Positions 27,215 to 38,980 of a stretch of 48,673 nt of DNA are shown one piece after another. Source of the stretch: Acidobacteriaceae bacterium (GTDB taxonomy: Bacteria > Acidobacteriota > Terriglobia > Terriglobales > Acidobacteriaceae); NCBI GenBank assembly GCA_025355385.1, contig JANXZS010000074.1, forward strand, positions 1 to 48,673, read 5' to 3'. The notes beneath the pieces are model-generated. The model was not told the DNA's origin. It was given only the letters and a program-made list of their open reading frames with translations, and searched no databases. A program made the position numbers and the translations under genes. Positions within the stretch are counted from its first letter, which is position 1, and each line of letters opens with the position of its first letter.

Positions 27215-29446
27215 ATGCGACGAGCAATGCGAGTCGGAGTTGTGGTCTTTGGAGTTTGTTGCTTCACTTCAATGCTGGCGGCACAAGTCGCGCAGCACGT
27301 CGATCCGCTGCTCGGAGTGGATGGAGGAGGTAATACTTTTCCAGGACCGACAACTCCTTTCGGAATGGCCAAGCCGGGTCCGGATATGGACGTAGGGGTG
27401 GATGACGCCAATGCCGGATGGGCGGCGAAAGGAGAGATTCGTGGCTTCAGCCAGACCCACGTGAGTGGTACGGGGGGTGGGGTGAAATATGGCAACATAC
27501 TGGTGCAGCCAACGACGGGTGCTCCGGTCACGAATGGGTATGGCTCGCCGCGAGAGAAAGAGCAAGGAGCTATCGGGTTTTATAAAGTCACGTTGCAGAG
27601 ATATCCGATCGACGTCGAAATCACGGCTGCTCGGCGCACAGCGTTCTATCGGTTTACCTATCCCGATGCGCGCCAAGCCAACATCCTTTTTGACGCGGGA
27701 CACTACCTCAAGTCGGGTTCCAAGGCTGGGGAAGGTCAGTCCCTCACTGCTTCCCAGATCACAGTTTTGTCGCCGACCGAAGTCACCGGATCAAGCAGTG
27801 TAACTGGGGGCTGGAATAAACAACCCACTTCATACACCGTTTACTTCTACGCGAAGACCGACATGCCGGCGCAGTCCTGGGGCACATGGCGAGACCATGA
27901 TATGCATCCAGGCGCAAGGCACGCCGAGGCCGGCGCCAACGCAGGAACAGGCGCATGGCTTACCTTCCCGACTAAACAGGGAGAGCAGGTGCGGTTGAAG
28001 GTTGGGATATCGTTTGTCAACCCCGAGCAGGCCAAGAGCAACGCCACATCGGAGATTGCGGGCTTCGATTTTGACGCGACCCGGGCGGCTTCCGCCGCGG
28101 AGTGGGATAAAGCGCTGGGTGCTATCGAACTGAAGGGGGAGACACCAGAGCAGGCTCAGATGTTCTACACCGCTCTCTACCACGCGATGCTGATGCCCAC
28201 GGACAGAACCGGCGAGAACCCTTTGTGGCAATCGAAGGAGCCGTACTACGACGACTACTATGCGATCTGGGATACTTTCCGCACGTCCAGCCCCTTATTG
28301 ACGCTGATTGCGCCGGAGAGAGAGACGAAAATTGTGCGGGCTCTGGTCGATCTCTATCGAAACGAGGGCTGGTTGCCGGATGCGCGGAGCGGCAATTATA
28401 ACGGGCGCACACAGGGTGGCAGCAACGCAGAGTTCGTGCTGACAGACGCGTATGTAAAAGGGCTCAAGGGTATCGACTGGAATACCGCGTATGCGGCTGA
28501 AGTGAAAGATGCCGAGGTCTCTCCAAAAGATCAGTTCAAAGAGGGACGCGGGGGACTCGCCGGATGGCATGACGCGGGTTATGTAACCGTCGAGGACGTG
28601 GATCGCCCCGGCTCAAAACAGATGGAATATGCAGCGAATGACTTCGAGATTGCGCTGCTTGCCAAGGGGATGGGAAAGACGTCGGAATACGAGAAATATC
28701 TGAGGCATTCGGGAAACTGGGAGAACTTATGGGATTCCAACCTTGATGATAGCGGGTTCAGGGGGTTTATCCGGCCGCGACACCGCGATGGTAGTTGGCT
28801 GACGCCTTTCACGACCATCGAGGACTGTAGCTGGGGCGGCAAAACATTTTACGAAGGTAACTCCTGGACCTATTCCTTGTTTGTGCCGCAGAACGTGGCG
28901 CGGCTCATCGAGAAATCTGGTGGGCCACAGAGATTCGTGGAGAGACTGGATGCATTCTTCAATGTGCCAGGTCGATACGACGTAGGCAACGAACCTGGAT
29001 TCCTCAGCCCGTATCTTTACATTTGGGCGGGACGGCACGATAAAACCGCGTCGCGAGTGCGGGAAATTATGGCGGCGAACTTCCATGCAGGGCGCAAGGG
29101 CTTGCCGGGAAATGATGATTCGGGCGCAATGTCGTCGTGGTACGCGTTCGGGCAAATGGGTATTTTCCCCAACGCGGGACAGGATGTTTACCTGATCGGA
29201 AGTCCGGGGCTTCCGCAGACAGTGCTGCATCTGGCAGACAGCAGGACCTTCGTCATTGAAGCAAAGAATGTCTCTGCAGGAAACAAATACGTAACCGCAG
29301 CTGAACTGAATGGCAAGCCCCTGAATCGAGCGTGGCTGCGTCACTCGGAGATTGTAAACGGCGGCCGACTGGTGCTTACGATGGAGCAAGAGCCAGGTTT
29401 GTGGCCAACGGGCGATGTGCCACCGTCGACGCCATCCACTCGCTAG
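27215..29446 (+). CDS. secreted glycoside hydrolase family 92 (alpha-mannosidase)
   Basis: Calcium-dependent exo-alpha-mannosidase of the GH92 type, removing mannose from glycans. It has 743 residues with a Sec signal peptide (1-23, ending MLAAQ). Family blocks are VDPLLG...GNTFPGPTTPFGM at the mature N terminus, AIWDTFRTSSPL, GGSNAEFVLTDAY, GGKTFYEGNSWTYS, and GNDDSGAMSSWYAFGQMGIFP with the catalytic-region aspartates near 634-635. Linkage specificity cannot be read. The ATG at 27215 has GGAAGGG upstream. The stop codon lies inside the left arm of a 118-bp palindromic element. It stands alone. Confidence 0.93.
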   Translation: MRRAMRVGVVVFGVCCFTSMLAAQVAQHVDPLLGVDGGGNTFPGPTTPFGMAKPGPDMDVGVDDANAGWAAKGEIRGFSQTHVSGTGGGVKYGNILVQPTTGAPVTNGYGSPREKEQGAIGFYKVTLQRYPIDVEITAARRTAFYRFTYPDARQANILFDAGHYLKSGSKAGEGQSLTASQITVLSPTEVTGSSSVTGGWNKQPTSYTVYFYAKTDMPAQSWGTWRDHDMHPGARHAEAGANAGTGAWLTFPTKQGEQVRLKVGISFVNPEQAKSNATSEIAGFDFDATRAASAAEWDKALGAIELKGETPEQAQMFYTALYHAMLMPTDRTGENPLWQSKEPYYDDYYAIWDTFRTSSPLLTLIAPERETKIVRALVDLYRNEGWLPDARSGNYNGRTQGGSNAEFVLTDAYVKGLKGIDWNTAYAAEVKDAEVSPKDQFKEGRGGLAGWHDAGYVTVEDVDRPGSKQMEYAANDFEIALLAKGMGKTSEYEKYLRHSGNWENLWDSNLDDSGFRGFIRPRHRDGSWLTPFTTIEDCSWGGKTFYEGNSWTYSLFVPQNVARLIEKSGGPQRFVERLDAFFNVPGRYDVGNEPGFLSPYLYIWAGRHDKTASRVREIMAANFHAGRKGLPGNDDSGAMSSWYAFGQMGIFPNAGQDVYLIGSPGLPQTVLHLADSRTFVIEAKNVSAGNKYVTAAELNGKPLNRAWLRHSEIVNGGRLVLTMEQEPGLWPTGDVPPSTPSTR

Positions 29447-29560
29447 CGCAGAAGCAGGGATAGTGTGATGTATCCAGCGTAAGCGATGTAGGTATTTTCT
29501 TGATGAAAATGCCTGCAGAGATCTGTGGCTCACCTTACAGTAACCCTACTTCTGCGCTAG
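29443..29560. repeat. 118-bp palindromic element, copy 1
   Basis: Arms CTAGCGCAGAAGCAGGG (29443-29459) and CCCTACTTCTGCGCTAG (29544-29560) pair over 17 positions with one mismatch. Inside is a second hairpin, GGTATTTTC-TTGAT-GAAAATGCC (29491-29513), with one T:G pair. It lies between two convergent genes and overlaps the GH92 stop codon. Ten base differences separate it from copy 2 (36876-36993). It probably acts as a bidirectional terminator or is a REP/MITE-like mobile repeat. Confidence 0.85.
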
Positions 29561-29567
29561 TCTTTTG

Positions 29568-30974
29568 TTAGATCTCAACCGGTATGTTTGCGGCCCCGCT
29601 GGTGCCAAACACTTGCCGGTAGCGTTCGATCTCCGCCGGGGCCCCCGTAGACTTGGCGTAGTTGTCGGAGAGTTTTACTGCCGGTCGCCCATCTGCTGCG
29701 GTCAGCTTGCAGATCAGGCTGATTGGTTCGAACTCGTTTCTGCCGTCGGGATCACAGCCGCGAAAATCATTGGTGAGCAAAGTGCCCCAGCCGGCACTGA
29801 AGCGTATCCTACGTCCGGGCGACCACTTGGCGGGGTCGTCAAAATCGGCGGCTGACCGGAAATCTTTCGGCGTCACACCCTGCTGAAGAGTTCCGGAAAA
29901 ATAGGCGTGCAGCCCAAGTATCGCATCCACATCGAGTGCGTCTGAGGCGATGATGAGCTTGTCCCGCGGTTCCCGGCCGTGCTGCCGAAGCCACCGTATA
30001 TATTCATCGCCAGCGATGTACGGATCTTTGCTATCAATGCGCTGCCCCGTCCAATCTGCAGTCCATTCGGGGGCATCCTGAAGAAATTGGGTTGTGCCAA
30101 AAGTATCGGGCAGCATGATCAGCAGCTCACCCTGATAGGTGTTTTGCCACAACTCCAGCACGCGGTATTGAGATGCTTTGAGCGCCTGGTCATCGGCAGC
30201 CAATGCGGCCAGCGCCATTGGAATCTCGTGCGCATTGGTGCCGATCGCCTCCATGTCATGCTTGTAGGCCAGGTAAGTATTCGAAGTTCCAGAGAAGCTT
30301 TCGCCGAGCGCTCTGCGGCAAACATTTACGGCATACTCCTGCCATAGAAAACTATGCCGCCTCCGCGTGCCGAAGTCAGCAACCTTAAGGCCCGGAACCC
30401 CTCGCAATCGCTCCATCTTCTCCCACAGTCTCGTCTTGGCGCGCGCATAAAACACATCCAGCGCGATTTCGGTCATCCCTTTGAAGCCGGCCCTGGTCCT
30501 CAACTCGCCCAGAATGGAGAGGCCATATATCTCCCACATCGTTGTATCGGTCCAGAGTCCTTCAAATTTCAAGCAAAACTGCCCGTCCTGGATCGAAACC
30601 TCATATTCCGACAAGCGAAACCCATGTTCCAGCCACGCCAGAAATGCAGGCTCGAAGATGCCCCTGCGACCGTAGAAGGTGTTTCCCGCGAGCCAGATCA
30701 ACTCGGATTTGCGGAACCGCAATCGGCGCACCTGCTCCAGCTGGGCTACCAGTTCCTCGCGCGGAATGCGATCTGCCAGCCTGACTTCAGAGCTGCGATT
30801 GATCAGCTCGAAGGTTGCGTTTGTTCGGGGAAAATGTTTCCAGATAAACTGCAGCATGAGCAGTTTGTAAAAATCCGTATCGAGCAAAGAGCGAGTGACC
30901 GGGTCCAGATTCCAATTGTGGTTATGCGCTCTCTCGGCAAAGTTCACGATCACCGTGGAAATCCTCAATACCAT
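29568..30974 (-). CDS. pncB: nicotinate phosphoribosyltransferase
   Basis: Converts nicotinate and PRPP to nicotinate mononucleotide in NAD salvage. It has 468 residues from ATG 30974. LLDTDFYKLLMLQF begins the domain, ADFGTRRRHSF is the family signature, and GTNAHEIPMA holds the phosphorylated histidine region. The frame is open to 31145, but that would run into the neighbouring gene and adds non-family sequence. A GTG at 30953 with GAGGA 8 nt upstream is an equally good start. It is convergent with GH92, only 7 bp past the palindromic element. Confidence 0.92.
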   Translation of the reverse strand: MVLRISTVIVNFAERAHNHNWNLDPVTRSLLDTDFYKLLMLQFIWKHFPRTNATFELINRSSEVRLADRIPREELVAQLEQVRRLRFRKSELIWLAGNTFYGRRGIFEPAFLAWLEHGFRLSEYEVSIQDGQFCLKFEGLWTDTTMWEIYGLSILGELRTRAGFKGMTEIALDVFYARAKTRLWEKMERLRGVPGLKVADFGTRRRHSFLWQEYAVNVCRRALGESFSGTSNTYLAYKHDMEAIGTNAHEIPMALAALAADDQALKASQYRVLELWQNTYQGELLIMLPDTFGTTQFLQDAPEWTADWTGQRIDSKDPYIAGDEYIRWLRQHGREPRDKLIIASDALDVDAILGLHAYFSGTLQQGVTPKDFRSAADFDDPAKWSPGRRIRFSAGWGTLLTNDFRGCDPDGRNEFEPISLICKLTAADGRPAVKLSDNYAKSTGAPAEIERYRQVFGTSGAANIPVEI

Positions 30975-31035
30975 ACTGCTACAGGGAGCGCTGTTCGCGC
31001 GAGTGGGGGAGGACGAATCGCATTGGGTAATTGTG

Positions 31036-31698
31036 CTAGTACATCCAGCTACAATCGCGATTGAAATCCGTCGTCTCTGAACGCTGCCATTTGCCAGCCC
31101 TTTTCTCGACAGCAAAGACTCCTCCGCTGCCGCAATGCACACCACAGCTTTTGGCCACCGACACTAGCGCCCGCGTATGTGCGGAGTCGAAGCCTGGCAC
31201 TCCCAGCAGTCGCAGGTGCCTGAGTTGACGGTATTTTTCGCATTGTGAGGCGTCGCTCCAGTGCGTGAGGAGGCAATGCTGTGCCAGGGATACCTCGGAT
31301 TTTGATAGCAATTGATATCCCTCGGGAATCGAGAACTTCTTTTCCCAGCGGTGGCTCTGCCGATTGGCGGCAACAAAGGCATCGAGCATCAGGTGCTCAG
31401 TAGCCGTCGCTGGCCTCAGGCAACTCCCGTCCACCTGCGGAATATCCGTCTGAGAATCTTCCGCGAAAGCGAGCGGTTCGTCCATTGGGGTCTGGTACAG
31501 AGCCGAATACACATCGTAAGACTCGGCCGGGACTTCGCTTCCTCCTGGCTGGTTTAAAGGCATCGTGACCGAAAGATCCGTGGTCGGTTTGGTCTCAGGA
31601 GACTTTGTGCGTCGTAGAGAGTTGAAGCGCACCCACAGCAGCGCGAACGCGATTACCAGCAGGAACAACCGCAATCCCAGACGCCAGGAGAAGCGCAT
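31036..31698 (-). CDS. membrane-anchored protein of unknown function
   Basis: I do not recognise a named family. The 220-residue product has an N-terminal signal anchor (about 8-25, LGLRLFLLVIAFALLWV) followed by a Ser/Thr/Pro-rich linker and an extracytoplasmic domain of about 160 residues. That domain contains six cysteines, including CGVHCGSGG, and ends EKRAGKWQ...CSWMY. This late pattern (CG-x-xCG, then a lysine-rich strand and GKW) recalls uncharacterised exported acidobacterial proteins. The ATG at 31698 with GGAG 8 nt upstream is preferred to a TTG at 31704. It is upstream of pncB on the same strand, gap 61 bp. Confidence 0.65.
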   Translation of the reverse strand: MRFSWRLGLRLFLLVIAFALLWVRFNSLRRTKSPETKPTTDLSVTMPLNQPGGSEVPAESYDVYSALYQTPMDEPLAFAEDSQTDIPQVDGSCLRPATATEHLMLDAFVAANRQSHRWEKKFSIPEGYQLLSKSEVSLAQHCLLTHWSDASQCEKYRQLRHLRLLGVPGFDSAHTRALVSVAKSCGVHCGSGGVFAVEKRAGKWQRSETTDFNRDCSWMY

Positions 31699-32040
31699 TT
31701 TCAATACTCCATGCTCAAAATATAGCGTGACAACACGAGCGCTGATTGGCTACTAGCGTAAGTGAGCAGAGCGATCGCGTTGCTCCACGCGAGGCAAGTT
31801 GACTAGTGAAAGTGAGTAGTAGTGGCTTGGGGGGTAACCCGCAGCTGCTCAGTAACCTCCTTGCCAGATCTATGCAAGCATACTCAGCACCCATCGGAAG
31901 AGGCAAAGTCTCTTGAGATTGCATTGACGATGCGGCGCTGTCTTGTCTGCCTACCGTGTCCCCACTGGCTCCGGTCCACCCTGTCGTTTTATCGAGTCTC
32001 AGGGTTGACGGCTTCCGACCGGGATAGCATGATGGGCCAC
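31699..32040. other. gap between unknown gene and cupin gene
   Basis: A 342-bp divergent gap. Two similar 18-mers, ACTAGCGTAAGTGAGCAG (31752) and ACTAGTGAAAGTGAGTAG (31802), 50 bp apart, agree at 14 positions. No clear promoter. The cupin reading frame is open through the right half but shows no family likeness there. Confidence 0.35.
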
Positions 32041-32445
32041 ATGAAAGTACTCACAAATGAGATGCGGGGCTGCCGCAAGGGTCCTGAAGCATGGTTTACC
32101 GGCACCGTGTGGATAGACGAGATTGCGACCGGAGAAACGCCTTCAAGGCTTAAGGTGAACCGAGTTTCGTTCGAGCCGGGCGCGCGCACAGCGTGGCATA
32201 CCCATCCGGTCGGACAAGCGCTTCATGTCGTGTCAGGCATTGGCAGAGTGCAGCTCAAAGGTCATCCTGTGCAAGAGATTCGTCCCGGCGATACGGTTTG
32301 GATCGGTGCGGGGGAAGTGCATTGGCACGGCGCATCTCCCAGATACACGATGATCCATTTAGGCATGCAGGAGAGTGACGAACACGGAACCGATGTGGTC
32401 TGGCTGCAGCACGTCACGGACGAAGAGTACCTGCCTCCCGCTTAA
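32041..32445 (+). CDS. single-domain cupin, hydroxynitrile lyase-like
   Basis: A 134-residue cupin. From memory it closely resembles the manganese-dependent hydroxynitrile lyase of Granulicella tundricola: WFTGTV near residue 18, FEPGARTAWHTHPVGQ, IRPGDTVW, HWHGASP and HVTDEEY correspond block for block. The metal ligands are all present (two His and one Gln in HTHPVGQ, one His in HWHG). Such enzymes interconvert cyanohydrins with aldehyde and HCN in vitro; the natural substrate is not known. ATG 32041 gives the same N-terminal length as that enzyme; ATGs at 32029 and 32032 are alternatives. Single gene. Confidence 0.8.
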   Translation: MKVLTNEMRGCRKGPEAWFTGTVWIDEIATGETPSRLKVNRVSFEPGARTAWHTHPVGQALHVVSGIGRVQLKGHPVQEIRPGDTVWIGAGEVHWHGASPRYTMIHLGMQESDEHGTDVVWLQHVTDEEYLPPA

Positions 32446-32675
32446 CCTCTGCTTGTTGGTAAAAGGGCATGTCCAAGGCGCGTTTGCGCTACACTTGGGC
32501 GAGCCGCGAAGCATAACTTTTTGTAAGCGGCTATGAGAGCGAAATTGTGACAAAGTGATCCGTGGGAGCGAGGGATTGCCAGCCAATGCGCATCGACGTA
32601 CATTTCTGTTAGTCCGAGAGCGTTTCACTACTCAATTAATCCCCATTCAACTGATTCCCTGGAAAACTCATAGTT

Positions 32676-34103
32676 ATGGACGTTCTTAAAAAACTTTTTG
32701 AGCAGCATTTTCACTTGCCGGTCGAGCAGGTGGACTCGCTTCAGGGTCAACTGGGCGGTTCCGGACGAAAAATCGTCCGACTTAACAGCCAAACATTCAG
32801 TGCCATCGGCATTCTGTATGACGTACGGGAAGAAAACGTCGCGTTCCTGGAATTTTCAAGGCATTTTCGTCGGCATGGCTTGCCGGTACCCGAGATTTAC
32901 GCTGAAGACTTGAGCAGTGGAGCGTATGTCGAAGAAGACCTGGGCCAGACTACTCTGTTCGAATTTCTGGCGCACAATCGTGCGGATCACATCCTCGCTC
33001 CCGAAGCTGTCGATGCCTATCGTAAAGTTGTAGCGATGTTGCCACGCTTCCAGGTTGAAGCCGGTCGCGATCTAAATTACAAGTTTTGCTATCCGCGCGC
33101 CAGCTTCGACCGCCAGTCCATCGCCTGGGATTTAAATTATTTCAAGTACTACTTTCTCAGGCTTGCGGGCATCGCCTTCAACGAGCAGGCGCTGGAAAAT
33201 GATTTTAGCCGCCTCACTAAGTTCCTACTAAGCGCCGACCGCGACTACTTTCTTTATCGGGATTTCCAATCGCGCAATGTCATGTTGCGCGACGGACACC
33301 CATTTTTTTTGGATTATCAAGGTGGCCGTCGAGGCGCTCTTCAGTACGACATTGCTTCTTTGCTGTACGACGCCAAGGCCGATTTATCACCCGAGCTACG
33401 CCACCAGTTACTTGATCACTACCTCGACATCCTATCTGGTTACATCGAGCTTGATCGGCAGAGGTTCATGCGGTATTACTACGCCTACGTCTATGTCCGA
33501 ATCATGCAGGCGTTCGGTGCTTATGGCTTTCGTGGCTTTTATGAGCGCAAAGCTCATTTCTTGCAGAGTGTTCCGTATGCGCTGAAGAATTTACGATGGT
33601 TGCTTCACAACGTCGAGTTGCCGGTCCCGCTGTCGACACTGATGGATGCCTTTCATGGAATGTTAGCCTCGGAGCAATTGCAGGGCCTGGCTCTGGCTCC
33701 AGGTCAATTCACGGTACGGATTTTCAGTTTCTCATTTCACAAGGGCCAGCCGAAGGATGAATCCGGGCATGGCGGAGGCTTCGTCTTCGATGCTCGGAGT
33801 CTTCCCAATCCAGGTCGCGAGGAGCGCTTTAAAGCGCTGACGGGTAGAGACGCGGCCGTGGTCGAGTATCTCAATGTGCAAGAGAGTGTCGGCCAGTATC
33901 TCGACCACGCGTTGTCGCTTGTAGATGCCAGCGTCAGCAATTATCAAAGCCGCGGATTCAAGAACCTGATGGTATCGTTCGGTTGTACCGGAGGCCAGCA
34001 TCGATCCGTTTACCTGGCGGAGCAACTGGCGAAACATCTGCGGGGCACGAGTGGAGTGGAGATAAAGTTGGAGCACCGCGAGCAGGAGAACTGGCCAAGA
34101 TGA
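32676..34103 (+). CDS. amino-sugar kinase (APH/AmgK-like) fused to RapZ C-terminal domain
   Basis: A two-domain protein of 475 residues. Residues 1 to about 330 are an aminoglycoside-phosphotransferase fold: YRDFQSRNVM with catalytic Asp196 and FLDYQGG with Asp213 for magnesium. That is the fold of AmgK, the anomeric MurNAc/GlcNAc kinase. Residues about 345-470 match the C-terminal domain of RapZ: FSFHKGQP, GFVFDARSLPNP, TGRD and SFGCTGGQHRSVYLAEQLA. The Walker-type N-terminal domain of RapZ is absent. ATGA overlap with the MurU-like gene makes a two-gene recycling operon. Which sugar is phosphorylated, and what the RapZ part senses, is inference. Confidence 0.85.
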   Translation: MDVLKKLFEQHFHLPVEQVDSLQGQLGGSGRKIVRLNSQTFSAIGILYDVREENVAFLEFSRHFRRHGLPVPEIYAEDLSSGAYVEEDLGQTTLFEFLAHNRADHILAPEAVDAYRKVVAMLPRFQVEAGRDLNYKFCYPRASFDRQSIAWDLNYFKYYFLRLAGIAFNEQALENDFSRLTKFLLSADRDYFLYRDFQSRNVMLRDGHPFFLDYQGGRRGALQYDIASLLYDAKADLSPELRHQLLDHYLDILSGYIELDRQRFMRYYYAYVYVRIMQAFGAYGFRGFYERKAHFLQSVPYALKNLRWLLHNVELPVPLSTLMDAFHGMLASEQLQGLALAPGQFTVRIFSFSFHKGQPKDESGHGGGFVFDARSLPNPGREERFKALTGRDAAVVEYLNVQESVGQYLDHALSLVDASVSNYQSRGFKNLMVSFGCTGGQHRSVYLAEQLAKHLRGTSGVEIKLEHREQENWPR

Positions 34104-34861
34104 AAGCGATGATTCTGGCTGCCGGTCTCGGCACGCGATTGCGACCCCTCACCGATAATCTACCGAAAGCGCTGGTGGAAGTGGCTGGAAGAACTCTTTT
34201 GGAGATCACGCTCTCTCGCTTACGCACTTGCGGAGTACGCGAAGTGATCATCAATGTACATCACTTTGGCGACTTAATTATCGAGTATCTGAAAAGGAAC
34301 GACGACTTCGGCATGCGTATCGAAATCTCCCGTGAGGACGTCTTGCTGGATACTGGCGGAGGCCTGAAAAGAGCCGCCTATTTCTTTGTTGAGAATACAA
34401 GCGATGTGGATCAGCCATTCATTTTGCACAATGTCGATGTGATCAGCACCATTGATCTACCACTCATGGTGCAGTTTCACTCCGAAAATAGTGCTCTGGC
34501 TACGCTGGCAGTGCAGGATCGTGTCACCGACCGGTATCTGCTCTTTGATGAGCAATCCCAGCTCTGTGGCCGGCAATCAGGGCACGATGTCGCGACTGAG
34601 ATTGTTAGACCTGCCCACCAGGTTCAGCTGCGGGCGTTCTCTGGAATTCACGTCATTTCACCGCGTCTTTTTGCGATGACGGGAGCGGGTATCTTCTCCA
34701 TCATTACGTCTTACCTGCATCTGGCTGCCGAGGGACAGAGAATCCTTGCTTTTAACGCCGATGATTATTACTGGCGTGATCTCGGCAGGCCCCATAGTGT
34801 AATGCAAGCTTCTCAGGATTTCAAGCAAGTAGCTGCACTGCAAAAGACATTATGCGTTTAA
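34100..34861 (+). CDS. sugar-1-phosphate nucleotidyltransferase (MurU-like)
   Basis: Transfers a nucleotide to a sugar 1-phosphate. It has 253 residues and the signature start MILAAGLGTRLRPLTDNLPKAL, with LHNVDVIS as the metal-binding aspartate region. The next-door kinase with AmgK fold suggests MurNAc-1-P or GlcNAc-1-P as substrate, giving UDP-MurNAc or a related sugar and bypassing de novo synthesis. By sequence alone a mannose-1-P guanylyltransferase is also possible. The start is fixed by the conserved N terminus and the ATGA overlap with the kinase gene; the longer frame from 33983 lies inside that gene. Confidence 0.85.
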   Translation: MKAMILAAGLGTRLRPLTDNLPKALVEVAGRTLLEITLSRLRTCGVREVIINVHHFGDLIIEYLKRNDDFGMRIEISREDVLLDTGGGLKRAAYFFVENTSDVDQPFILHNVDVISTIDLPLMVQFHSENSALATLAVQDRVTDRYLLFDEQSQLCGRQSGHDVATEIVRPAHQVQLRAFSGIHVISPRLFAMTGAGIFSIITSYLHLAAEGQRILAFNADDYYWRDLGRPHSVMQASQDFKQVAALQKTLCV

Positions 34862-34975
34862 GGGGAGAAAGACTGATCAGCTTGTTGGGCTGACCAAATG
34901 GCGTTTCTGGAATTGCTCAAGCTCACGAACGGCACCGCTTTTCTTTTATGTCCTAAAGGTTCGTTTTGACACCTT

Positions 34976-36826
34976 ATGATTGCTGACTCAATACGGCATA
35001 AGTACGAAGGGCGGCGCTACCCGTCGATTGGCCAGCTAGCGGGGGTCGCCCTGATGCTGGGTCTTCTCTCAGGCGCGGCATCGCTAATCAATGCGCGCAG
35101 CTGGGGTCTGGGCGGAGTCACGATACTGTGGCCGTCCAACGGGCTTCTGCTGGGGGTGCTGCTATGCGCGCCCCGCCGGCATTGGCCCGCATACCTAGCG
35201 GTCGCTCTTGGAGTCGATTTCGAGATCAATCGTGCATTGTCTTGTTCCGTTTTGACCTCTGTTTACCTGGGCGCCTGCAACATGCTCGAGGTTGTTATCG
35301 CAGCGATCCCGCTTTATGCGATGATCGCTCCCAATCCCGACCTGACTCAGCGCAGGCAGCTTATCAATTTTTTGTTCTATGGAGTAATGCTGGCGCCCGC
35401 CATCGCTTCGATGGCGTCAAGCTTTGAGTCAGCACGAGCGTTTTCGATGCCATTATTCCACTCCTTCCAAGTATGGTTTACCGCCGACGCACTTGGCATC
35501 GCCACCATAACTCCTCTCTATCTTGCATTCAGACAACGAGAGTTTTTGAACCGTAGTTGGCCGGAAGTAGGAGGGCTCTTTGGATTGCTGGGCGTCACCA
35601 CGGTTTTTGTCTTCTGGCAAAGTCAATTTCCTTTTCTTTTCCTTGTATTAGTTTCCCTGCTACTGCTGGGTGTGCGTCTCCGGCTTGCGGGATCGGCGCT
35701 CGGGCTGCTGGTGGTGTCCAACATTGGCGGCTTTTTGACAACAATGGGACACGGTCCGGTGGCGCTCGTCCTGCATGCCTCCCTTTCGACGCGCGAATTA
35801 GTTTTCCAATTTTTCATAGCCACCTCAATGTTGGTGCTCTACATCGTCGAAGTGGTTATTGCCGAGCGAGAACATCTGGATAGAAACCTGCAAGCGAGCG
35901 AGGCTCGCTTTCGTCTACTGGCTGAAGTCTCACGGGACATCATCGTGCTTGCGGATATTGCTGGTGAGCGCCGCTACGTGTCACCTGCCGTTACCGAAAC
36001 ACTAGGTTGGGATCCTGAAGAGCTGGTTGGAGGCAACCATCGCCAACTCATCCACCCCGATGACGAGGCCAAATTTACGAGTCTTCTGGCGGAGTGCCGA
36101 GCGGGTGGGCCATCCACAGTTGTCCCCTATCGGTGCAGAAAGAAGGACGGGACTTACCTGTGGCTGGAATCTAATTTGCGACTCTATCACGACTCGGCAA
36201 CCGGTGAGCCCATTGGTTTTGTAAACATTGAACGCGATATCTCGCATCGCAAGGCCGCCGAGGAAGAGCTGACAAAGGCCTTCCACCTGGCTGAGAACCT
36301 CGCGGGCGTTGACGGACTTACGGGTATTGCCAACCGCCGACGTCTGGACGAAACCATGGAATTTGAATGGCGGCGCGCCATCCGTGATCGCGAATATATC
36401 TCACTGCTGCTGATCGACGTGGACCACTTCAAGCGTTACAACGATATCTACGGCCATATATCGGGAGACAATTGTCTCCGCCAGGTCGCGGAGACAGCGC
36501 TGAAGGCGGTGCACCGCCCTGCGGATCTTTTGGGGCGCTATGGGGGTGAAGAGTTTGTGGTTGTTCTACCGAACACCGATAGCAGGGGCGCGAATGAAAT
36601 TGCTGAGCACATTCGGGATGCGGTGGAACAGCTGCGCGCACCCCATGAAGGTAATCCACATGCTGTTATCACGGTGAGCATTGGCTGTGCTACCCGGATA
36701 CCGGAGCGGGACTCCAGCTATAGCTCACTTCTACAAGCCGCTGATAGTGCCCTGTACCAGGCCAAGTCTGCCGGGCGCAATCGTATTGAAGCCGCCAGCC
36801 TTCAGTCGGTTGAAAAAAGCCAGTAA
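34976..36826 (+). CDS. MASE1-PAS-GGDEF membrane diguanylate cyclase
   Basis: Makes c-di-GMP from two GTP. It has 616 residues. A MASE1-type sensor of about eight membrane segments (about 20-295, with LWPSNGLLLG) is followed by a PAS domain (about 308-425) and a GGDEF domain (about 445-605). The active loop is RYGGEEF (521-527), intact. RPAD at 514-517, five residues before it, is a complete inhibitory I-site, so product feedback is expected. No EAL or HD-GYP domain follows. No clear ribosome site precedes ATG 34976. The gene stands alone, 115 bp after the recycling operon. Confidence 0.93.
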   Translation: MIADSIRHKYEGRRYPSIGQLAGVALMLGLLSGAASLINARSWGLGGVTILWPSNGLLLGVLLCAPRRHWPAYLAVALGVDFEINRALSCSVLTSVYLGACNMLEVVIAAIPLYAMIAPNPDLTQRRQLINFLFYGVMLAPAIASMASSFESARAFSMPLFHSFQVWFTADALGIATITPLYLAFRQREFLNRSWPEVGGLFGLLGVTTVFVFWQSQFPFLFLVLVSLLLLGVRLRLAGSALGLLVVSNIGGFLTTMGHGPVALVLHASLSTRELVFQFFIATSMLVLYIVEVVIAEREHLDRNLQASEARFRLLAEVSRDIIVLADIAGERRYVSPAVTETLGWDPEELVGGNHRQLIHPDDEAKFTSLLAECRAGGPSTVVPYRCRKKDGTYLWLESNLRLYHDSATGEPIGFVNIERDISHRKAAEEELTKAFHLAENLAGVDGLTGIANRRRLDETMEFEWRRAIRDREYISLLLIDVDHFKRYNDIYGHISGDNCLRQVAETALKAVHRPADLLGRYGGEEFVVVLPNTDSRGANEIAEHIRDAVEQLRAPHEGNPHAVITVSIGCATRIPERDSSYSSLLQAADSALYQAKSAGRNRIEAASLQSVEKSQ

Positions 36827-36875
36827 AGATCAGCCAGACAGACGATACTCACAACCGTGCTGCTGACCTACACTT

Positions 36876-36993
36876 TTAGAGCAGAAGCAGGGATAGTGTG
36901 ATGTATCCAGCGTCAGCGATGTAGGCATTTTCTTGATGAAAATGCCCGCGGAGATCTGTGGCTCCCCTTACGGTAACCCTGCTTCTGCTCTAG
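36876..36993. repeat. 118-bp palindromic element, copy 2
   Basis: Arms TAGAGCAGAAGCAGGG (36877-36892) and CCCTGCTTCTGCTCTA (36977-36992) pair perfectly over 16 bp. The inner hairpin GGCATTTTC-TTGAT-GAAAATGCC (36924-36946) is also perfect. Relative to copy 1, one arm pair has changed from C-G to A-T on both sides. It sits 50 bp after the GGDEF gene and 56 bp before the end of the convergent GH51 gene. Confidence 0.87.
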
Positions 36994-37048: not shown

Positions 37049-38980
37049 TCATTTCACGGCCAATTCGAGCACTTGTATCGAGTAGGCCGGAATGACATGG
37101 TGGAAGTCGGCACCAGCAGTCTTGATGGAATTGTGGACAGGCACAATTCGCACTGGGTCGGAGATGGAGTTCGTTTCCTCGGTGGTATGGGCGCTCAAGC
37201 TTACGAGTTTAACTGTGGGGGTTACCTGTGTAGCACCTGTCAGCTTGACCTCAAGTGGCTGTGGTGACGAGGAACCATTGACCAGCTTCAGGAATAGCAG
37301 TCCCTTGGCCGCATCATGAGTTACGGAGTAGAAGAAGCGCGGTCCGCCGCCATTGAGCTTCGAGTCCACAACCTCCGTCCCTAGGTGGCTGCCAAACATC
37401 ACCTGGGCATAGTAACTGGGCGACCCATAACTATTCAGCGTATCGAAGCCGATAAGATCCGATTCCCATTGCATGCCTCCCGGGTTGACGTTGACCAGCA
37501 TTGGCGCATAGCTGGCCATCACGATGACATCACTGTTTCGCTCCATGCCAGTCATCCACGCCGCATCCCCAAGGGCAGAGCCAAAGTTGGGAGTAGGTGA
37601 GCCTTCGCGTGTAGCCCATTCCCCGACAAATATTTTGGGTCCGTTGCGATCAGTTTTGTCATAGTGGTGCACATCATCGAAGAACTCGACGGCTCGCTTA
37701 TAGTAGTGGTCGTCGATCACGTCGGGAGTTAGTCCCTTGACCGGGGTAGTTGCGATCAATTGCAGTTGGGGGTACTGCTTCTTGATGGCTTTGTAAAACT
37801 GAGCGTACCGCTCATCATAGCTATTAGACTTATCAAACCAGTCTTCATTCCCTATTTCTACATAGGTGAGAGGGAAGGGCTCAGGATGGCCGTTCTTGAT
37901 CCGGACGGCCCCCCATTTAGTGTTGGCGCTACCGGTTACATACTCGATTTCGTCGAGCGCATCCTGCACGTAGGGTTCCAGATCGGCACCCGGATTGACG
38001 TGCTCCTGCATCATTGAGTAACCGGCATACACGGCTAACACTGGCTGTACACGTAGGTCTTCGCACCACTCCATAAACTCAAGCAGGCCCATACCATCCG
38101 AGGAGTGGTACTTCCACGGACTGGGGTGGGTTGGACGGTCAACCAGAGAGCCGATCGTCTTCTTCCATTCGTACCGCTCAGAGATGTGGTCGCCCTCAAG
38201 ATAATTCCCGCCAGGCAGGCGCAGGAATGTGGGCTTCATGGCCACCATCTTTTCCATCAGGTCGATGCGATTGCCATTCTTCCGGTTGTGAAAGGTAGGA
38301 GGAAAGAGAGAGACGAGGTCGAACCAGATACTGCCTGGGTGTTGAACAGAAAGCAGCAGATGATTAGTGGAAGAAGTCGCAATCTCGCCAGTCTTGAGTA
38401 CGAAATCATATTTCTTCCATTCGGTAGTGAGCGCTGGCACCGTGGCAGAAGCAGCTACGGTGCCACTATCGTTGTTGATCAAGCTCACGGTAACGGGACC
38501 AACTGACGTGTTGTCGGCCTTGGCATAGAAGGATCCCTGGTAGGTTGTGCGTGCCCGTACGGGAAAGCCCCAGAAGCCGTCATTCTCGACACCAGCTGGA
38601 CTCTTGGCATCTGCCTTGCTGACATTAAGCTTCAGGCTTTTGCTGAGGGCGACACTTGGCCCGGTCGATTTGTCCAGTTCCATCGACGCCCGGGAGTCCC
38701 CCTTCTGGACGATTAGCCAATGCGGTGCCCCCATCCAGCTAGCTTCATTCAGAGTGCGATTGCTGACCAGCTCTCCGTAAAGTCCGCCATCGTAGGAGTA
38801 ATTAATTTCCTCCGTCATCAAGCCGTAAAGCATGGGGCTGACCTTGGCTGTGGGTTTGAGGACCTGAATTTCCAAAATAGCTGCGCTCTGGGGCGCGGGG
38901 GCCAGCTGAGCATAGAGCGCCATCGCAAGCGGCAAACATGCTAAAGCGGTAGATCGCGCAACGAGACGCAGCCAGAACAT
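37049..38980 (-). CDS. secreted alpha-L-arabinofuranosidase (GH51 type)
   Basis: Removes arabinofuranose side chains from plant polysaccharides. It has 643 residues: a signal peptide (about 1-24), a beta-sandwich carbohydrate-binding-like region (about 100-240), a TIM barrel, and a C-terminal beta domain. Acid/base Glu379 is in YVEIGNEDW and nucleophile Glu454 in IFVGEWAT; LRLPGGNYLEGDH lies at the barrel start as in GH51. The spacing of 75 residues between the two acids matches the plant-like subgroup rather than short bacterial enzymes. The start at 38980 has GGAGG about 9 nt upstream. A LacI-like operator precedes it. Confidence 0.88.
   Translation of the reverse strand: MFWLRLVARSTALACLPLAMALYAQLAPAPQSAAILEIQVLKPTAKVSPMLYGLMTEEINYSYDGGLYGELVSNRTLNEASWMGAPHWLIVQKGDSRASMELDKSTGPSVALSKSLKLNVSKADAKSPAGVENDGFWGFPVRARTTYQGSFYAKADNTSVGPVTVSLINNDSGTVAASATVPALTTEWKKYDFVLKTGEIATSSTNHLLLSVQHPGSIWFDLVSLFPPTFHNRKNGNRIDLMEKMVAMKPTFLRLPGGNYLEGDHISERYEWKKTIGSLVDRPTHPSPWKYHSSDGMGLLEFMEWCEDLRVQPVLAVYAGYSMMQEHVNPGADLEPYVQDALDEIEYVTGSANTKWGAVRIKNGHPEPFPLTYVEIGNEDWFDKSNSYDERYAQFYKAIKKQYPQLQLIATTPVKGLTPDVIDDHYYKRAVEFFDDVHHYDKTDRNGPKIFVGEWATREGSPTPNFGSALGDAAWMTGMERNSDVIVMASYAPMLVNVNPGGMQWESDLIGFDTLNSYGSPSYYAQVMFGSHLGTEVVDSKLNGGGPRFFYSVTHDAAKGLLFLKLVNGSSSPQPLEVKLTGATQVTPTVKLVSLSAHTTEETNSISDPVRIVPVHNSIKTAGADFHHVIPAYSIQVLELAVK

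Follow-up and report, generated by a model that had tools for sequence, protein, structure and literature searches.

Two palindromes in an Acidobacteriaceae genome, probable members of a MITE-like family found at gene ends

A 48,673-nucleotide stretch of an Acidobacteriaceae genome (GenBank assembly GCA_025355385.1, contig JANXZS010000074.1, positions 1 to 48,673; the whole of this stretch is called the window) carries two copies of a palindromic element of 118 bp, which can be set beside several described systems. MITEPsy1 of Pseudomonas syringae pv. phaseolicola, a miniature inverted-repeat transposable element (MITE), is 100 nt long, with 18-nt terminal inverted repeats and CTAG or YTAA as its target; in the passages that treat it, it is marked 'IS5?' and thought to be derived from ISPsy2 (PMC3189936). 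REPINs are described as short, palindromic, hairpin-forming, non-autonomous and present in high copy number (PMC3116915). Among the repetitive extragenic palindromic sequences (REPs) of Escherichia coli, 446 out of 4,072 lie no more than 15 nt from a stop codon (PMC12306157). The Correia elements of Neisseria are hairpin-forming MITEs with more than 100 copies, mainly located directly upstream of genes and carrying promoters (PMC10969869).

The two palindromes of the window are very probably copies of one family of MITE-like, non-autonomous transposons, with about 88 copies in one genome. The family resembles MITEPsy1 in size, in its terminal inverted repeats and in its CTAG-type target. The arm sequence, however, is unrelated, the copy number given for MITEPsy1 is low (5 and 1 in two table columns), and the 4-nt duplication ascribed to it is excluded here by the tetramers at the left and right ends; the passages on MITEPsy1 describe no gene-end placement. 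All the listed properties of REPINs are shared, but, unlike for REPs and REPINs, there is no linked REP-associated tyrosine transposase (RAYT) with matching repeats, and the stop codon itself is contained in 39 of the 88 copies. Correia elements are similar as hairpin-forming MITEs, whereas the family described here sits at gene 3' ends. It is a new family of an ordinary kind, so far seen as a burst of some 88 short transposons in a single genome and not found in the relatives searched, and its gene-end placement is unusually sharp.

Family size, anatomy and insertion sites

The preliminary description of the window had proposed a covariance-model search for further copies. A first DNA search of the source genome (G000, 4.63 Mb in 321 contigs) yielded 98 candidates; the 40 that were scored are all copies. 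With a covariance model made from 30 copies, 87 full-length copies and an internally deleted one (C137:191-276) were detected in the same genome. This total of 88 is a lower bound, as the best 150 of 2184 first-look candidates were scored. The covariance model found nothing in 60 relatives, of which one belongs to the same genus; in a class sample of 399 genomes, scored for at most two candidates each, the 398 other than the source genome were without a match too. No match to the element was found in a plasmid collection, nor any exact element pattern in collections of genome contigs and viral contigs, from which the source genome itself may be absent. Among the top-ranked records of open-licence PubMed Central, selected by word match, no paper was recognisable as describing the element. 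One exact CTAGNGCAGAAGCAGGG / CTAGTGCAGAAGCAGGG site, the only one among the 398 genomes, is present in a distant class member (L129, G297:C56:115493-115509), where no element was detected; it may be due to chance.

The consensus of the 88 copies reads CTAG-A-GCAGAAGCAGGG ... GGCATTTTCTTGATGAAAATGCC (centre) ... CCCTGCTTCTGC-T-CTAG. Copies are 112-118 bp long with arms of 17 bases, too short to leave room for a transposase gene. They differ from the consensus at 8.2 positions on average (range 2-40, the highest value being that of the deleted copy), and their flanks are unrelated to each other. The linked variants 20G/81T/84C/86C define a sub-lineage of copies, suggesting that more than one source copy has probably been active. 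The bases just inside CTAG, at positions 5 and 114, are hypervariable: of 87 copies, 16 and 15 respectively are changed there, whereas the usual figure per site is about 5.8.

Empty sites were sought in 1.98 Mb of G001, a genome of the same genus. Some flank match was found for 40 of the 88 copies, and both flanks are colinear for 19. Two orthologous sites, those of window copy 1 (C246_29443) and of C151_27323, are exactly 114 bp shorter in G001. At C151_27323 the empty site reads ...GTTAGG-CTAG-ATAGTAGA... with a single CTAG, and the occupied one is bounded by CTAG left and right. The joined flanks of eight copies were aligned. Those of window copy 1 align to G001 without any gap at the site, with TGA as the aligned stop, and TGA also stands in place of TAG for C299_789. 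The occupied genome and the element-free G001 have the TAG stop in common at C202_13831 and C312_15414; there, the stop codon predates the element. C4_5174, C247_27087 and C56_51639 gave no informative alignment.

The element ends are YTAR, mostly CTAG. Among the 88 left ends, 53 are CTAG, 16 TTAG, 4 CTAA and 4 TTAA; among as many right ends, CTAG was counted 63 times and CTAA 5 times. TA on both sides of the element is the norm. A 4-bp target duplication was rejected: a left TTAG is paired with a right CTAG 14 times and with a right TTAG once. A duplication of TA inside YTAR and a YTAG target without duplication both fit the tetramer data.

Candidate mobilisers

A DDE transposase would act on the element in trans. 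An IS5/IS427-like enzyme is the likeliest candidate for this, with about even chances. This attribution is based on the CTAG ends of two insertion sequences of the genome, L222 and L220, on the direct repeats of IS5/IS427 elements, described as mostly of 2 bp (PMC3281130), on YTAR, given as the duplication motif of IS5 (PMC10359306), and on the target of MITEPsy1. The DDE class is inferred, and so are the duplication of the 2 bp TA and the mechanism of placement set out below.

L222 is an IS5-family element (L222:1413-2311, G000:C61; NF033580, 134 bits, cut-off 110) with the ends CTAGAGCCTG...CAGGCGCTAG, and thus CTAG on both sides, like the MITE; its left end and the MITE consensus both read CTAGAGC. 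Unlike the MITE, it is about 0.9 kb long and carries a transposase gene. L220, of the IS4 family (L220:4-1321, G000:C47; NF033592, 267 bits, cut-off 115), ends in CTAGTGTCCG...CGGACGCTAG, again with CTAG on both sides. In both, a non-matching base stands next to CTAG, as at the variable position 5 of the MITE. Two transposase families of one genome, IS5 and IS4, are flanked by the same rare CTAG target. No autonomous element with the MITE's own ends (GNGCAGAAGCAGGG) was found in the 321-contig assembly, searched for four families and for end patterns; the autonomous parent may be lost or lie in an assembly gap. A search for half-elements in 600 kb returned, among the 39 matches listed, only matches of 10-14 bases and, via L100, the C312 copy again.

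A different kind of mobiliser was considered, namely a Y1 (HUH) transposase moving the element as single-stranded DNA, in the manner of REPINs or IS200/IS605-like elements. Insertion would then take place 3' of YTAG, with CTAG as the element's own right end and no target duplication. The flank asymmetry, with C or T as the left outer base and a nearly fixed right end, agrees with this, the net insertion of 114 bp is equally compatible with it, and the genome has two RAYT genes. The link between element orientation and GC skew, which would also point this way, is weak and not significant (p 0.087). Both RAYTs, however, adjoin another repeat, the CCCACGTCTC hairpin. Around them, no arm of the element with at most two mismatches is present in L098, and L099 has a single match, with two mismatches. 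No further Y1_Tnp match was found in the genome at E 0.001. The ends are CTAG, and not the GTAG or CGTC tags reported for two large REP super-families (PMC3733652). We regard transfer by a Y1 transposase as unlikely, and the RAYTs were rejected as mobilisers. A REP/MITE-like repeat had been among the first suggestions for the palindromes; of this, the MITE half holds. The repeats beside the RAYTs (L099:1809-1960, G000:C137, and L098:1360-1463, G000:C68) are hairpins of the CCCACGTCTC...GAGACGTGGG type and form a separate family; the one on C137 is a 38-bp tandem array.

A MITE of the IS630/Tc1-mariner family, inserting at the TA within CTAG, is another candidate, and a rather doubtful one. The ends are flanked by TA with a preference for CTAG, and IS630 is said to prefer the TA in 5'-CTAG-3' (Tenzen and Ohtsubo, 1991, going by the title). 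Two IS630-type (DDE_3) fragments are present in the genome, on C312 and C321. The C312 fragment (IS630 model, 72 bits, below the cut-off of 100), however, is flanked by different inverted repeats, GGTTTGGGGAGCAGGT; for the C321 fragment several weak repeat pairs are listed, none of them resembling the element's arms. No arm match was found at either fragment except for a copy 1.4 kb away on C312. As neither has ends like these arms, the fragments are not supported as parents. The CTAG-N end architecture, moreover, is shared by the IS5- and IS4-type elements of this genome.

Folding, pairing and placement at gene ends

On both strands, each window copy folds as a long hairpin with imperfect pairing. 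Compared with 200 dinucleotide shuffles, the z-scores are -8.2 and -7.2 on the plus strand and -6.9 and -6.7 on the minus strand, and no shuffle was as good. Such a strong hairpin suits an element that has a function and is maintained by selection at the ends of genes, whether as bidirectional terminator, insulator, mRNA 3' stabiliser or translation-lowering hairpin close to the stop. The last of these has a parallel in E. coli, where a lowering effect on translation is reported for REPs at most 15 nt from a stop (PMC12306157). The variation among copies, however, argues against selection on the structure. For 87 of the 88 copies, the deleted one being left out, 46 consensus pairs yielded 23 double-changed cells, against 20.6 expected under independence; 9 of these are still paired and 14 are not. 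Changed copies per site are 5.74 for paired and 5.88 for unpaired positions, so that stems are no more conserved than loops. In a control with 30 copies and 35 pairs (5/114 not among them), no pair was changed on both sides. There, the share of pairing cells is 96.6%, compared with 40-51% after sliding, which is expected because the structure was derived from the same sequences.

The change from C-G to A-T at pair 5/114, taken in the preliminary description as a compensatory substitution, does distinguish the two window copies. Its proposed meaning did not hold: only one of five double changes at this pair is still paired. As double changes are near chance and pair 5/114 is hypervariable, selection on pairing is not supported, and compensatory evolution of the arms was rejected. 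A structured RNA under such selection is likewise not supported, given the lack of covariation and the equal variation of paired and unpaired sites; an Rfam scan of the window returned tRNA only, with neither copy matched. The suggested bidirectional terminator found no positive sign either: neither window copy has a site resembling an intrinsic terminator, and the flanks of the 88 copies lack a T-run. Promoter-like sites were not detected at either window copy.

Genes were called with a simple codon-usage caller made for this analysis, not with a published tool. With these calls, 58 of the 88 copies lie in convergent gaps, 24 in tandem and 3 in divergent ones, with 1 inside a gene and 2 at contig edges; stricter gene sets leave 56 and 54 convergent copies. 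In the same regions, only 83 of 434 adjacent gene pairs are convergent, and 57 of these 83 hold a copy, which bears out the preference for convergent gaps suspected from the two window copies. The free CTAG sites that lie at stops or outside genes are distributed differently (40 convergent, 102 tandem, 34 divergent; p 5e-12 against the copies): the convergent share of the copies is three times theirs, and the divergent share is depleted. This test is conservative because the background regions were taken around copies and so contain more convergent gaps than the genome at large. A gene 3' end adjoins 84 of 87 copies, at 100 bp or less for 75. Inside genes, a single insertion was found, against 280 free coding CTAG sites in the same regions. 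The neighbour's stop codon lies within the terminal tetramer at 21 left and 19 right ends, one copy having it at both. In tandem gaps, copies are close to the upstream stop: their mean relative position is 0.22, and that of 71 free CTAG sites is 0.47 (p 0.003).

This distribution, mostly though not entirely, is explained by a CTAG target together with the loss of insertions from genes and promoters. Coding CTAG sites would be left almost unoccupied because insertion is harmful there, and those of promoter regions would be depleted likewise. Insertion would be tolerated at a CTAG that makes up a stop codon or directly follows one, the element's own CTAG end keeping or rebuilding the TAG stop, and the family would come to rest in convergent gaps and at the 3' ends of genes. 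If so, the family is a clean case in which a rare 4-base target and the loss of harmful insertions give a pattern resembling that of a regulatory element. Similar placement would thus arise without benefit, and the element is unmatched in the 60 relatives and the 398 class-sample genomes; we therefore hold a function under selection to be very improbable, in spite of the hairpin and of the gene-end placement. Scarcely more probable is a transposon that homes to gene ends, its CTAG target allowing it to enter TAG stops and rebuild them, and whose palindrome then serves as a portable, orientation-independent boundary of transcription units, re-setting the 3' ends of dozens of genes within a single lineage as it spread. 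A role as transcript boundary is conceivable, with the placement alone pointing to it. Should the copies really alter transcript ends, the element-free sister genome would be a ready control.

Several observations weigh against a MITE moved by a TA-specific DDE transposase and sorted by loss of harmful insertions. Besides the two clean sites, the remaining 17 of the 19 colinear pairs differ in length by -674 to +285 bp; these gaps have been changed in other ways too. The outer bases are T and G (TTAG-like) in 24 of 87 copies and C and A (CTAA-like) in 7, where equal numbers are expected of a symmetric TA-specific transposase. Beyond its first bases, the inverted repeat of L222 (CTGTTATGAAGTT) departs from that of the MITE. 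No autonomous element sharing the MITE's ends came to light: 64 of the 65 exact CTAGNGCAGAAGCAGGG sites of the genome lie inside the 88 copies, the remaining one being unplaced. One-mismatch matches to the 12-base arm number 234 in G000, with 164 in copies and 70 elsewhere, against 42 for a reversed control pattern; the extra ones are possible solo or decayed ends. Variation is also uneven when all variants are counted: 4.7 and 4.3 per site in the arms and 3.8 in the centre, against 6.1 in segment 18-43 and 7.8 in segment 75-101. As variants present in one or two copies are evenly spread (1.5-2.3 per site, every segment alike), we read this excess as old variation of the source copies, even if a weak constraint on arms and centre is conceivable. 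Finally, with the edge copies excluded, 38 of 86 copies overlap a stop; among free CTAG sites the count is 45 of 176 (odds ratio 2.3, p 0.003), and target choice alone is therefore insufficient.

At four copies (C205_49990, C261_9941, C98_10037 and C278_19065), the neighbouring gene ends 15-26 bases inside the element, which seems to supply its stop codon and last residues. A phage-integrase-family gene (PF00589; L047:130-1182, G000:C312) contains an in-frame copy at 925-1042, adding 38 codons just ahead of a conserved GHTSIKTTERSY stretch. The in-frame TAG that the consensus would have is removed from this copy by base changes.

The two window copies and their neighbours

The features of the two loci are collected in Table 1. 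By direct reading, the copies are both 118 bp long and differ at 10 positions, as first described, and the terminal arms and the inner hairpin with its TTGAT loop are present as well, the arms measuring 17 bases.

Table 1. Features of the two element copies and of the adjacent genes, in window positions.
Feature	Position	Strand	Remarks
MITE copy 1	29443..29560	+	118 bp including both terminal CTAG; net insertion 114 bp; direct reading
Copy 1, left terminal arm	29443..29459	+	CTAG + N + GCAGAAGCAGGG
Copy 1, right terminal arm	29544..29560	+	inverted left arm, one mismatch
Copy 1, central hairpin	29487..29517	+	TTGAT loop at 29500-29504; fold
TAG stop of the glycoside hydrolase family 92 (GH92) gene	29444..29446	+	within the terminal CTAG of copy 1; aligned codon of the G001 orthologue is TGA
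Glycoside hydrolase family 92 gene, upstream of copy 1	27215..29446	+	Pfam
Nicotinate phosphoribosyltransferase family gene, convergent to copy 1	29568..30974	-	Pfam
MITE copy 2	36876..36993	+	left end TTAG, right end CTAG
Copy 2, left terminal arm	36876..36892	+	
Copy 2, right terminal arm	36977..36993	+	
Copy 2, central 9-bp hairpin with TTGAT loop	36924..36946	+	fold
MASE1-PAS-GGDEF diguanylate cyclase gene, upstream of copy 2	34976..36826	+	Pfam
Alpha-L-arabinofuranosidase family gene, convergent to copy 2	37049..38923	-	Pfam

No empty site was obtained in G001 for copy 2, because its upstream gene, the MASE1-PAS-GGDEF gene, is absent there from a stretch that is syntenic in other respects. 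Both copies lie between a plus-strand gene and a convergent minus-strand gene, GH92 and nicotinate phosphoribosyltransferase for copy 1, GGDEF and arabinofuranosidase for copy 2, and the identities of these neighbours were confirmed by Pfam.

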